Below are positions 21,650 through 28,110 of a stretch of 64,000 bases of DNA, one piece after another (the stretch's first letter is position 1; each line of letters opens with the position of its first letter). The position numbers were made by a program, and so were the translations under genes. Location: the NCBI RefSeq assembly GCF_006376615.1, contig NZ_VEXQ01000017.1:1-64000 (forward strand), written 5' to 3'. The notes under the pieces are model-generated. The model was given only the letters and a program-made list of their open reading frames with translations, was not told the origin of the DNA and did not search any database. The DNA is from Buttiauxella sp. B2. Lineage in GTDB: Bacteria; Pseudomonadota; Gammaproteobacteria; Enterobacterales; Enterobacteriaceae.

Positions 21650-21665
21650 GTTCGATGCTGGAAAC

Positions 21666-21693
21666 AAAAACGCGCTCAAAGGCGCGTTTTTTT
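21666..21693 (+). terminator. gltA intrinsic terminator
   Basis: The GC stem CGCGC / GCGCG with flanking A- and T-runs (AAAAACGCGCTCAAAGGCGC then T7) lies 17 bp after the gltA stop. The flanking A-tract would also let it work on the minus strand for the pxp transcript. Confidence 0.9.
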
Positions 21694-21697
21694 ATGG

Positions 21698-21791
21698 TCA
21701 AAACTGCCAGCACGGACACCAGTAAAAGACCGTGATGAGAGCATCGTTTTTTCAATCGTGCCGCTCGCCTAATTTCGGGTTCTTCTGGCAT
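21698..21791 (-). pseudogene. nei: nei remnant (endonuclease VIII), internally deleted
   Basis: Directly after pxpC, read on the minus strand, MPEEPEIRRAA matches the Nei N-terminus (catalytic Pro2 and Glu3). After two extra bases comes IEKTMLSSR, and after a 1-base deletion FYWCPCWQF and a stop. I recall the E. coli Nei C-terminus as [20 protein letters not shown]. So both ends of nei survive, joined across a deletion of roughly 230 codons, and the zinc-finger end is mutated (CPGC to CPCW). It cannot make a glycosylase. Confidence 0.85.
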
Positions 21792-21808
21792 CATTTCCCC
21801 CCTGAAAA

Positions 21809-22741
21809 TCAATCTTCGTTATTAAGCCGCCAGGCCAGTTGTTCGAGATAAATTTGTTGCTCTCGACGTGCTTTAAGCGCTTCTTCCAGTGTGCACTGCA
21901 CGAAATGTATCGGTTCCCCGAGGCGTAACTGCGCCAGGTTAAACATATCAGCTTCGATAACACAGGCGATTCTTGGATACCCACCGGTGGTCTGGGCATC
22001 ATTCATCAACACGATGGGTTGCCCATTGTGCGGCACCTGCACCACACCTGGCAGCAATCCATGCGATAACAATTCGCGGTCTGTGGTGCGCTCCAGCCGT
22101 TGCCCCTGCAAGCGGTAACCCATGCGGTTACTTTGCGGGCTTAACTGCCATGGCAAGCGCCAAAATGCTTCTTGTGAAGTATGGGTAAACTCGTGATATT
22201 CAGGGCCTGCGAGTGCACGTATACGATTTCCCCACAACAACTGCTTCACACCACGCGCTTCACGGAAACGTCGTGTAGTAGGCAGTAGAGGAATTTCATC
22301 ACCATCTTTAACTAAACGCCCTTCAAGCCCACCAACCTGTGCTTTTAAATCGGTACTATACGAACCCATTACTTCAGGAACATCTAACCCACCCGCGACG
22401 GCAAGGTAACTGCGCATACCGCGGTCGGGCGATTTAAGCTGCAGTTTCTGCCCCGCTTTCACCGGCAATCTCCAGCCAGTCCAGACTGCGCGCCCATCCA
22501 GCTCGGCGTGACAGCCCGCTCCTGTTAATGCAAACCAGCCGTCTTGGGTAAATTCCACCACACAATGACCCAACGTGATTTCTAACGCGGCGCTATCAGG
22601 AGCATTTCCCACTAGCAGATTGGCAGTTTGCAAAGCGGGTGCATCAAGCGCACCACAACGGCTAACGCCCAACTGCCGGTAGCCATAACGCCCAGTATCC
22701 TGCACTGACATGTGCATCCCGGCACGAATAATTTTCAGCAC
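21809..22741 (-). CDS. pxpC: PxpC, 5-oxoprolinase subunit C
   Basis: With PxpA and PxpB it cleaves 5-oxoproline to glutamate using ATP. The 310-aa protein is a full-length KipA-type (biotin-dependent carboxylase-like) subunit. Markers include [20 protein letters not shown], the [22 protein letters not shown] strand region and [11 protein letters not shown]. It overlaps pxpB by 7 bp. The pxpA gene expected next, between pxpC and nei, is absent; only 17 bases separate pxpC from the nei remnant. Confidence 0.95.
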
Positions 22742-23391
22742 ACGCCCTCCTTTTGAGGCACAAAACGGACGGTATCACCCGGCGTCAATAATGTTGGCAT
22801 TTCATCTGTTGGATTGAATAACTTCACGGAGGTCTGACCGATAAGTTGCCAGCCGCCAGGGGTTTCCAGAGGATAAATGCCTGTCTGGGTACCGCCGATA
22901 CCCACTGAGCCTGCCGGAACCAGTAACCGAGGCTCTGCGCGGCGCGGCGTGGCAAGCGCGGGGGCAAGCCCTCCAAGATAAGCAAAACCCGGCTGGAATC
23001 CGAGGAAGTAAACCACGTAATCAACCGAGGTGTGTTGCTCCACCACCTGATTTGCCGATAAGCCGCAATGCTCAGCAACTTCCAATAAATCCGGCCCGAA
23101 GCTACCACCATAAATGACCGGAATCTCAATGCGGCGGGACTCAGGAATGATGGCCTCACTCTCCTCCCACCAGCGCTGAATCAATTCGATTCCATCCAAC
23201 GCCAGATTCTGCGGCTCGCGCAAAACCACGGTGATGTTATTCATTCCCGGAATCACCTCCGCAACAGAAGTCGAGTCCAACAGCCGTTGAGTTAGCCCCC
23301 AAATCCGCTGCTGGCTTTCCAACGATAAAGGTGGTTCCAGTTCAAGAACCACTGCGCTTTCACCTAACAGATAACACCGCGCTCTTTGCAC
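22735..23391 (-). CDS. pxpB: PxpB, 5-oxoprolinase subunit B
   Basis: KipI-type (cyclophilin-like) subunit of the bacterial 5-oxoprolinase, 218 aa, standard length. The conserved [16 protein letters not shown] and the C-terminal [22 protein letters not shown] are intact. Codes in one unit with ybgI upstream (20-bp gap) and pxpC downstream (7-bp overlap). With no local pxpA, whether it still acts in 5-oxoproline disposal depends on a copy elsewhere. Confidence 0.95.
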
Positions 23392-25596: not shown

Positions 25597-26553
25597 TTAA
25601 TTGCCGTAACGCAAACGCAACGCTTCGGGATAAGGCTCAAAGTAGCGCTGCTGTGCCAGATAAGCGTCAGGATATTCTGCCATATAATGTTTTAACAAGG
25701 TGATGGGAGCCAGTAAAGGTTGAGTGCCCTGACGATACTTGTCGATAAGCCCCGACAGCTCCTGCCGCTGGCGAGTATTAAGCTGGCGGCGGAAGTATCC
25801 TTGCACGTGCATCAACACGTTGGTGTGATTGCGACGCGTGGCCTGGTGTTCAAGCAAAGACATGAGCCGCAAGCGGTATGCAACGAAAAAGTCATCCAGT
25901 GAGTTCCATTCTTCGACATCTGCTACGAAACGGCCTAATTCCCGATACTGCGGCTGCGAATGTGCCAATAACAATAATTTGTAACGGCTGTGGAAACTGA
26001 TAAGCCCGCCTCTTGTCAGGCCGGATTGGCGCAATTTATTGAGTTCATAAAGCGTATAAATTCTCTCAACAAAATTCTCGCGAATTGCAGGATCGTACAA
26101 ACGTCCGTCCTCTTCGACGGGCAACCACGGCAACTGGCGCTTCAATTCAGCGGTAAATATCCCAGTGCCGCTTTTACGGTTATTGCTTCCTTTTGCTTCG
26201 TAAACCCGGACTCGTTCCATGCCGCAACTCGGCGATTTGGCACAAACAATATAGCCACAAAGGTGTTCAAGCCCAGCAACACGACGTGAGGAAAACTGCT
26301 GCATGTCCTGCGTTAAATCACCCTCATGGTGGTTGCTATAGCGCAGTGCAATTTCGCCGTCATCGAGTTTAACAAGACGCAGTGCGGGCCTTGGTGTGGG
26401 TAAACCAATCGCCATTTCAGGACAAATCGGCTCAAAGTGAACCCAGGGAGCCAGTTCATTTACTGCAAACGCCAACCGTTTATGCCCACCATCAAAACGG
26501 ACATTTTCGCCGAGTAAGCAAGCACTGATGCCGATTGGAATTTTGTCGCTCAT
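25597..26553 (-). CDS. ybgA: YbgA, DUF523-DUF1722 two-domain protein
   Basis: A 318-aa protein. The N-terminal half (1-150) is DUF523 (MSDKIPIGISACLLGENVRFDGG, SPSCG at the Cys motif), the family that includes the 2-thiouracil desulfurase TudS. The C-terminal half (about 190-310) is DUF1722 (YKLLLLAHSQPQYRELGRFVADV, HVQGYFRRQLNTRQRQELSGLIDKYR). E. coli K-12 YbgA is a 169-aa DUF1722-only protein, so this is the longer, probably ancestral form. It heads the ybgA-phr-ybgI-pxpB-pxpC run. The exact function is not established. Confidence 0.9.
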   Translation of the reverse strand: MSDKIPIGISACLLGENVRFDGGHKRLAFAVNELAPWVHFEPICPEMAIGLPTPRPALRLVKLDDGEIALRYSNHHEGDLTQDMQQFSSRRVAGLEHLCGYIVCAKSPSCGMERVRVYEAKGSNNRKSGTGIFTAELKRQLPWLPVEEDGRLYDPAIRENFVERIYTLYELNKLRQSGLTRGGLISFHSRYKLLLLAHSQPQYRELGRFVADVEEWNSLDDFFVAYRLRLMSLLEHQATRRNHTNVLMHVQGYFRRQLNTRQRQELSGLIDKYRQGTQPLLAPITLLKHYMAEYPDAYLAQQRYFEPYPEALRLRYGN

Positions 26554-26605
26554 AACTTGCCCCCTTTAGAATCTTCACATCTAAGTGTAGCAAGCCTTAG
26601 AAACT

Positions 26606-26635
26606 AAAAAGGCTACCCGATTAGGTAGCCTTTTT
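26606..26635. terminator. bidirectional terminator between nuoN and ybgA
   Basis: AAAAAGGCTACC, a 6-nt loop and GGTAGCCTTTTT form a 7-bp GC stem plus a 5-bp A/T stem. It ends the 15-kb nuo operon 18 bp beyond nuoN on the minus strand. It lies exactly at the junction of two chromosome regions that are far apart in E. coli. Confidence 0.92.
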
Positions 26636-26652
26636 GCTTAATGATGATGTGT

Positions 26653-28110
26653 TTACATCATCGGTGTTGCCATTCGCACCAAAGTGATGAGCGGTTGAGG
26701 GTAAACACCCAGCAGCAGAACCAGCACAGCGGAGATCAGTACGACAACGCCGCCAGCGGTGAATGCCCAGTTAGTTGGTGCATCACGGTTAGGCTGTTGC
26801 GGAGCGTTCAGGTACAAACTGACTGTCACTCGCAGGTAGTAGTAAAGACCAATCGCACTACCCAATACCACAGCACCGGTCAGCCACCACAGGTGAGACT
26901 GAACACCAACTGCAATGATGTAGAACTTACCGATGAAGCCCAACGTCATTGGGATACCGGCCAGTGACAACATCATCACCGTCATAACGGCAGACAGAAT
27001 CGGCTTGTGCCAGAACAGACCACGGTAAGAATACAGAGAATCTGCATCCGGGCCACGGTATGGGCTGGACATTAGGCTAACCACGCCAAACGCACCCAGG
27101 CTGCTGAACAGATAACCGGCCAGATACACGCCAACGGATTCCATCGACATATCGCCGCTTTGCAGCGCAATCAAAGCCACCAGCAAATAACCGAGGTGTG
27201 AGATAGACGAGTAACCAAGCAGACGCTTGATGTTGGTCTGGCTCAACGCCATCAGGTTACCGAAGATGATGGAGAGGAAAGCGATAATGCCCAGCACTAC
27301 GCGAACGGCTTCGCTATCGCCGACTGGCGCATAGAGGAACAAACGCATCACCACACCAAAGATGGCGATTTTGCTGGCGGTTGCCAGGAAAGTGGAAACC
27401 GGAGCCGGAGCACCCTGGTAAACATCTGGCGTCCAAAGGTGGAACGGAACCAATGACAGTTTAAAGCCGAGGCCAACAATCATCAGACCCAGACCTGCCA
27501 GCAGCAACGGCTCGTGCAGCATGTTGTCTGCCAGACTCTTGCCGAGGCTAACAAACGACAGGTCGCCAGATTCTGCATACACCAGCGCCATACCGAACAG
27601 CAAGAATGAAGATGCTGCGGCAGACAGAATAGTGTATTTGATACTGGCTTCCAGAGATCGTTTCTGACGGAAAGCGTAACCAATCAAACCGAATAACGGC
27701 AGAGAAATCAGCTCAATACCAAGGAACAATGCTGCCAGGTGGTTGGCGTTTGCCAGCAGAATACCACCCAGTGCCGCAATCAGCACCAGCAGGTAAAACT
27801 CTTCGCGGTTGTCGGTGTAACCCTGCAGCCACGGATAAGCAAACGTACAGGTCGCGAGGCTTGCCAGCAGAACCAGCCCGGTATAGAGCATCGCATAGCC
27901 ATCAACGCGCATCAGCGGCGTGACATCCATGGCGCCAACCTGGCCGACAAACCAAAGTGAAACCAGCGCGGCGTTAAGGCCGACAACAGCCAGTGTTGCA
28001 TTGACAAAATGGTCGCGTCGCCACGCTATGGAGAGCATCACAACCACCACCGTCAATCCGACGACGAGCAGCGGTAGCAGCGCGATCAATTGTTGAGGAG
28101 TTATAGTCAT
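26653..28110 (-). CDS. nuoN: NuoN, complex I subunit N
   Basis: Antiporter-like proton-pumping membrane subunit of NADH:ubiquinone oxidoreductase, 485 aa with about 14 helices. Conserved Glu and Lys residues of the pump occur in the helix regions [17 protein letters not shown] and [29 protein letters not shown]. Last gene of nuoA-N, 6 bp after nuoM. Confidence 0.98.

Follow-up and report, generated by a model that had tools for sequence, protein, structure and literature searches.

Introduction

Inversions that are symmetric about the origin and terminus of replication were reportedly recognised by Eisen et al. in 2000. One rearrangement known within the Enterobacteriaceae, the family of Buttiauxella, is the inner terminus inversion of K-12 (topA...pykF), presumably the classic E. 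coli/Salmonella inversion; it also spans the terminus, and it differs from the Buttiauxella event in breakpoints and lineage. For Yersinia, the accessible excerpts of a study of inversion histories (PMC2483231) describe breakpoints nearly equidistant from the origin, kept leading-strand orientation and balanced replichores. Similarly, the excerpts of a study of replication-associated inversions (PMC9584773) describe large inversions that are centred on the origin axis, are explained by fork breaks and often have repeats at their breakpoints. Finally, symmetric inter-replichore translocations (Khedkar and Seshasayee 2016, PMC4889656) form a class in which, as far as the accessible part of that paper goes, genes lie on the opposite replichore at a near-equal distance from the origin, with strand and dosage kept.

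Here we analyse a window of 64,000 nucleotides, the whole stretch of DNA under study, from Buttiauxella sp. B2. Comparison with other Buttiauxella genomes and with outgroups makes it very probable that, on the Buttiauxella branch, two nested, near-symmetric, terminus-spanning inversions swapped two blocks between the replichores, with outer crossovers that traded terminators. Block 1 (ybgA...gltA...sdh-suc...tol...gal...modE-acrZ) would have been exchanged with block 2 (elaA-elaB-men...gyrA-rcs-ompC-ada-yojI-mgtE); each comprises some tens of genes. The event shares with each of the three described classes the features named above, apart from the repeats. The accessible part of PMC4889656 counts genes in genome pairs, whereas the Buttiauxella event can be followed at four junctions that are polarised by outgroups and found throughout the genus, with an exchange of terminators at the outer ones. 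In contrast to the symmetric inversions in the excerpts of PMC2483231, the two nested inversions would nearly cancel each other and leave a block swap, and no insertion sequence (IS) or long repeat was found at the seams. Breakpoint repeats of the kind that the excerpts of PMC9584773 describe were likewise not found at the Buttiauxella seams, although age may have eroded their traces. In titles and abstract openings of open-licence PubMed Central papers on Buttiauxella inversions or synteny, on terminators at breakpoints and on nested inter-replichore events, this event is not described. The class of inter-replichore translocations is already known; the new detail is that terminators changed hands and that every reciprocal seam is located.

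Results

A gap of 99 bp divides the window into a part of block 1 and a flank that has not moved. The features are as follows.

1–26,553, minus strand: portion of block 1, with tRNA-Lys, cpoB...tolQ, cydAB, suc-sdh, gltA (plus strand), pxpCB, ybgI, phrB and ybgA
2–77: tRNA-Lys gene at the left end of the window
25,597–26,553, minus strand: ybgA, with DUF1722 and 2-thiouracil desulfurase domains, the origin-proximal end of block 1
26,554–26,652, no strand, 99 bp: junction gap between the ybgA start and the nuoN stop; the probable crossover lies in its nuoN-proximal part, from the nuoN stop codon to the hairpin
26,606–26,635, minus strand: predicted terminator hairpin now serving nuoN, formerly that of ybfA; A5-GGCTACC ... 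GGTAGCC-T5 as read on the minus strand
26,653–28,110, minus strand: nuoN, last gene of the nuo operon, in its ancestral position; its downstream neighbour before the event was the elaA/rbn side
26,653–64,000, no strand: unmoved flank nuoN...purF

Most gene names in the window come from ORF translations recognised against the K-12 list, and those of the nuoN...purF flank from recognition without gene-by-gene alignment; the order from nuoN to pta looks K-12-like. In K-12, ybgA lies at 739.0 kb, lysT at 780.6 kb and nuoN at 2390.0 kb. The ybgA and nuoN loci are 1498 and 1493 kb from dnaA, which bears out the sequence-only reading that both endpoints are nearly equidistant from the origin. That reading also took ybgS for the ancestral neighbour of ybgA; the neighbour is in fact ybfA, on the kdp side, and the K-12 ybgS lies beyond the tRNA-Lys cluster. 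Block 1 has thus come from the kdp arm to the nuo arm, and its other end, modE-acrZ, sits on contig C2 of the same genome.

The contig that holds the window begins in the tRNA-Lys gene (1–77), the K-12 counterpart of which is a cluster of seven tRNA-Lys/Val genes, so this assembly break was likely caused by a repeat. The K-12 gene pxpA, for the third 5-oxoprolinase component, has no match in the window or in 23 Buttiauxella loci, 11 of which cover the pxpBC site; pxpB and pxpC themselves are present at 21,809–23,391 and in loci L114–L124. Endonuclease VIII (nei) has no match in the window, where the gltA-pxpC interval is 21,650–21,808, whereas each of the 11 other Buttiauxella genomes carries it in the pxpC-gltA interval.

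The sequence-only reading had taken the gap between ybgA and nuoN for a rearrangement breakpoint, and the same junction recurs across the genus: in all 12 Buttiauxella genomes examined, nuoN stands beside ybgA-phrB, beside phrB alone or across one inserted gene from them. It directly adjoins ybgA-phrB in the genome of the window and in G009, G010 and G011, and in G008 a gene for a chemoreceptor of 595 aa (dCache-HAMP-MCP; L121, 8093–9880) lies between nuoN and ybgA. Seven genomes (G001–G007) lack ybgA at the seam and have phrB directly after nuoN; in these, a YbgA of 60–62% identity is encoded elsewhere, without phrB within 1.5 kb (L018–L020, L022–L024 and L026), perhaps because a distant homologue has replaced ybgA. 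Among 80 named loci around YbgA relatives, only two have nuoN within 5 kb, both from Buttiauxella. Most of them (68 of 80) have ybfA upstream within 5.5 kb, and ten have neither ybfA nor nuoN, three of these ten being cut by a contig end. A survey of the family covered 159 genomes, of which 135 had any match, and PhrB rows were read for 41; among the matches listed, PhrB lies within 5 kb of NuoN on the same contig in both Buttiauxella genomes and in none of the 39 others.

The reciprocal junction, which had been named as a check, exists. We located kdpA in each genome and examined its surroundings; kdp-ybfA is joined to elaA/elaB-men in 12 of 12 Buttiauxella genomes, in the orientation that an inversion predicts. 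After ybfA follow elaA and elaB, or elaB alone (G002), and then menFDHBCE. In the genome of the window this junction lies on contig C23 (L125, 6604–7346). Pieces of yfbK remain between ybfA and elaA in G008, and the ybfA-elaA gap is about 1.9 kb in G003–G007. At the G003 seam (L128, 5437–7002) there is a sulfatase-family gene that resembles phosphoethanolamine transferases and scores below all NCBIfam cut-offs. A search of the 12 Buttiauxella genomes, run without a positive control, gave no match for rbn; a local search detected rbn near nuoN at four outgroup loci and at no Buttiauxella locus.

Two further junctions mark the other ends of the blocks. In a search with four genes, ada and modA were found together on one contig in all 12 Buttiauxella genomes, with matches starting 3.4–6.9 kb apart, and lapC and modE on one contig in 11 of 12, 4–21 kb apart; in G003 the latter two are on two contigs. 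The outgroups have a different arrangement, with modE and modA 1.0–1.2 kb apart and lapC and ada 5–24 kb apart in six of six, so that they reveal the ancestral state of these sites. K-12 genes mapped onto the seams locate modE|lapC in G011 and ada|modA in both G011 and contig C23 of the genome of the window. At finer resolution, one inner break falls between acrZ and modA and the other between mgtE and lapC; in G011 the lapC flank carries a tRNA-Pro gene. In the K-12 stretch 2294–2343 kb, no mgtE was found beside yojI.

What lies between the blocks was analysed with ten markers and dif, placed in three near-complete Buttiauxella genomes of one or two contigs (G008, G009 and G011) and in two outgroups, with K-12 also compared. 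From the ybfA side, G008 and G011 read gyrA+ uvrB+ clpA+ rne- pykF- fumC+ fnr- dif+ topA- aspS- metG+. In Citrobacter sp. R56 and Cedecea davisae, the markers from uvrB to metG run in this order and on these strands, except for fnr/dif, and gyrA lies at the opposite end; compared with Citrobacter sp. R56, K-12 has topA...pykF inverted. The marker order of G008 and G011 is thus that of the outgroups with gyrA relocated: in these two genomes the interior has kept its orientation, and movement was confined to the end blocks. G009 is further rearranged: clpA adjoins metG, and the rest is inverted.

For the geometry of the exchange, break points were placed by hand from gene positions, and dnaA stands in for oriC. 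With these points, block 1 (ybgA...acrZ) measures 47 kb in each of G008, G009 and G011, block 2 (elaA...mgtE) measures 65, 35 and 53 kb, and the corresponding intervals at the ancestral sites of C. davisae are 41.2 and 42.5 kb. In the same three genomes, the outer points lie 1506/1441, 1324/1396 and 1499/1414 kb from dnaA, a difference of 65–85 kb, and 1069/1126, 881/1039 and 1048/1258 kb from dif. The asymmetry from dif is therefore 58, 158 and 210 kb, which is less symmetric than from dnaA. The replichores measure 2567/2574, 2206/2435 and 2547/2672 kb (ratio 0.91–1.00). With origin and terminus located by dnaA and dif, each block is on the other arm with its origin-to-terminus direction and its strand relative to replication kept, an outcome expected of two nested inversions across the terminus, so that gene dosage and strand should be nearly unchanged; the earlier proposal that both blocks stay on the leading strand agrees with these orientations. 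In the terms of symmetric inter-replichore translocation, both blocks have been exchanged, lie on opposite replichores at 1324–1506 and 1396–1441 kb from dnaA and keep their strand.

The hairpin at 26,606–26,635 was found by pattern and folds at -19.9 kcal/mol; it is absent from the output of a consensus terminator scanner. Dryocola and Enterobacter sp. R1(2018) are among the non-Buttiauxella outgroups with the most similar YbgA and NuoN, closeness being measured by protein identity and not by a tree. Both have a GGCTACC hairpin in the ybfA-ybgA spacer and one of the CCGCC type downstream of nuoN. In Buttiauxella, a GGCTAC stem stands behind nuoN in nine of 12 genomes; the other three, G001, G002 and G006, have the variant GGCTGCC. 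Behind ybfA, the CCGCC hairpin of the nuoN type is found in six of 12 (G000, the genome of the window, G001, G002 and G009–G011); G003–G008 have inserts or gene remnants there, with other hairpins in place of CCGCC. In the window and 23 Buttiauxella loci, a crude finder detected the GGCTACC stem at nine of 16 hairpin sites near junctions and at none of 16 elsewhere. A CCGCC-type terminator also occurs natively behind ybfA in several outgroups.

The spacers around the hairpins were compared by local alignment. The nuoN-ybgA spacer of the window scores 85, 84 and 58 against the ybfA-ybgA spacers of Dryocola, R1 and Enterobacteriaceae bacterium RIT693 (best of 500 shuffles 40, 38 and 37), and 15–19 against the nuoN downstream sequences of four outgroups. 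Conversely, the ybfA-elaA spacer of the same genome scores 52–67 against these four nuoN downstream sequences (best shuffles 32–40), 21 and 22 against the ybfA-ybgA spacers of Dryocola and R1, and 32, equal to the best shuffle, against that of RIT693. Its hairpin is identical to the nuoN hairpin of RIT693 at 31 of 31 positions. Spacer alignments and hairpin stems together would place the outer crossovers, on both arms, between stop codon and hairpin, with a resolution of about 25 bases after the stop codons. As these sequences show, nuoN and ybfA have traded predicted terminators: the hairpin that once followed ybfA now follows nuoN, and the one that once followed nuoN now follows ybfA. The old hairpins and their new counterparts have similar folding energies (-22.2 and -19.9 kcal/mol; -15.4 and -15.5 kcal/mol). 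The seam had been thought to sit on a strong terminator rather than on an IS or rRNA operon; it does lie at a terminator and has neither of the others, but the break is just upstream of the hairpin, and the terminators themselves changed places.

Discussion

The arrangement of the four junctions suggests the following series of events. One pair of breaks, the outer one, would have fallen at ybfA|ybgA and on the nuoN|elaA side, in each case past the stop codon of ybfA or nuoN and ahead of the terminator of that gene, so that terminators would be exchanged and no gene broken. The inner pair would have fallen at acrZ|modA and on the mgtE|tRNA-Pro-lapC side. As a set of inversions, the swap takes no fewer than two nested ones; two, in whichever order, are the parsimonious reading of this result and not an observed series. 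The breaks may have been made or joined at two replication forks by illegitimate recombination; the similar origin distances of the outer points would fit breakage and rejoining there. Fork breakage with crosswise rejoining is an explanation offered for such rearrangements in the accessible parts of PMC4889656 and PMC9584773. We found no IS, rRNA operon or long repeat at the outer seams. No shared repeat was detected at E 0.05 in about 2 kb around each outer junction of the genome of the window, or between the two outer sites in Dryocola, C. davisae and R1. Among six comparisons of paired breakpoints, five gave nothing at E 0.05 and one, at an inner pair, gave a single 14-bp match with an E value of 0.016. 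Long homology was not found at any breakpoint, so these comparisons lend no support to recombination at IS or long repeats, although the event predates the genus and its traces may have eroded.

A related possibility is that the outer inversion arose by recombination between similar inverted sequences at both sites, for instance terminator hairpins of the CCGCC type or palindromes resembling REP elements. Some outgroups have CCGCC-T7 terminators behind both ybfA and nuoN, and some Buttiauxella genomes have extra GC-rich palindromes behind nuoN, which we take to be REP-like. The CCGCC-type terminators behind ybfA in several outgroups would allow recombination inside similar hairpins, followed by loss. 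However, in all 12 junction sequences the segment from the nuoN stop codon to the hairpin lacks a CCGCC stretch, the only hairpin in the ybfA-ybgA spacers of Dryocola and R1 is the GGCTACC one, and the repeat searches at the outer sites point the same way, which makes this route doubtful. By comparison, next to nothing speaks for an assembly error or for a local move of block 1 by transposition. The assembly is a draft of 75 contigs, and the contig of the window starts in a tRNA gene; yet an identical junction lies within contigs of 11 other, independent assemblies, three of them of only one or two contigs, which excludes misassembly. One-way transposition of block 1 is ruled out by the reciprocal junctions.

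One inversion across the terminus, with one end beside ybgA and the other beside nuoN, had been said to give exactly this junction, and it has much in its favour at the outer seams: the reciprocal junction and its orientation are precisely as predicted, and the loci are symmetric in K-12. It is nevertheless very unlikely to explain the present arrangement, since ada|modA (12 of 12 genomes) and lapC|modE (11 of 12) are additional junctions, and the interior from uvrB to metG has the outgroup orientation in G008 and G011, with gyrA and uvrB only 43–51 kb apart. As a full account it is ruled out by these inner junctions; it survives as the outer of two steps. Alternatively, both arms could have broken twice at near-opposite points in one episode and been rejoined crosswise without an intermediate inversion. 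The similar size of the two intervals in C. davisae, measured from hand-placed points, would suit such a concerted exchange, as would the fact that both pairs of junctions are common to the genus and that no genome with only one of the two inversions was found. We consider it unlikely: the blocks are less equal in Buttiauxella (47 versus 35–65 kb), symmetric inversions are frequent in bacteria according to the accessible parts of PMC2483231, PMC4889656 and PMC9584773, and G009 and the genome of the window have additional inter-replichore junctions. If it were true, opposite arm loci would have to be held together in an enterobacterium, for example at paired forks.

The swap is a genus-defining chromosomal marker for Buttiauxella and an inter-replichore translocation that can be resolved down to its four seams. 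The terminator exchange shows one way in which a megabase-scale rearrangement near major operons (nuo, sdh-suc, tol-pal, gyrA) can be tolerated: with crossovers just past the stop codons, each transcription unit received its terminator from the opposite arm. The case is also a warning that one junction and its reciprocal can mimic a simple inversion even though the overall result is an exchange of blocks.

Rearrangement has gone on within the genus. On contig C23 of the genome of the window (90.0–104.5 kb; L174 and L175), moaA is followed by dusC, which lie at 817 and 2229 kb in K-12, and this is another inter-replichore junction; it is not expected in G008 or G011 from their marker order. Together with clpA|metG in G009, it indicates that such inversions continued and that the orientation of the interior varies among members of the genus, so that the state at its stem rests on G008 and G011. 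The polarity of dif relative to dnaA flips too often to decide the parity of inversions: dif and dnaA point the same way in G009, C. davisae and K-12, but opposite ways in G008, G011 and Citrobacter R56, as well as in Pectobacterium, whose dif has two mismatches. Finally, the second contig of G008 carries a dif-like site with two mismatches (G008:C2, 91,482–91,509), and this contig is perhaps a plasmid or other second replicon.
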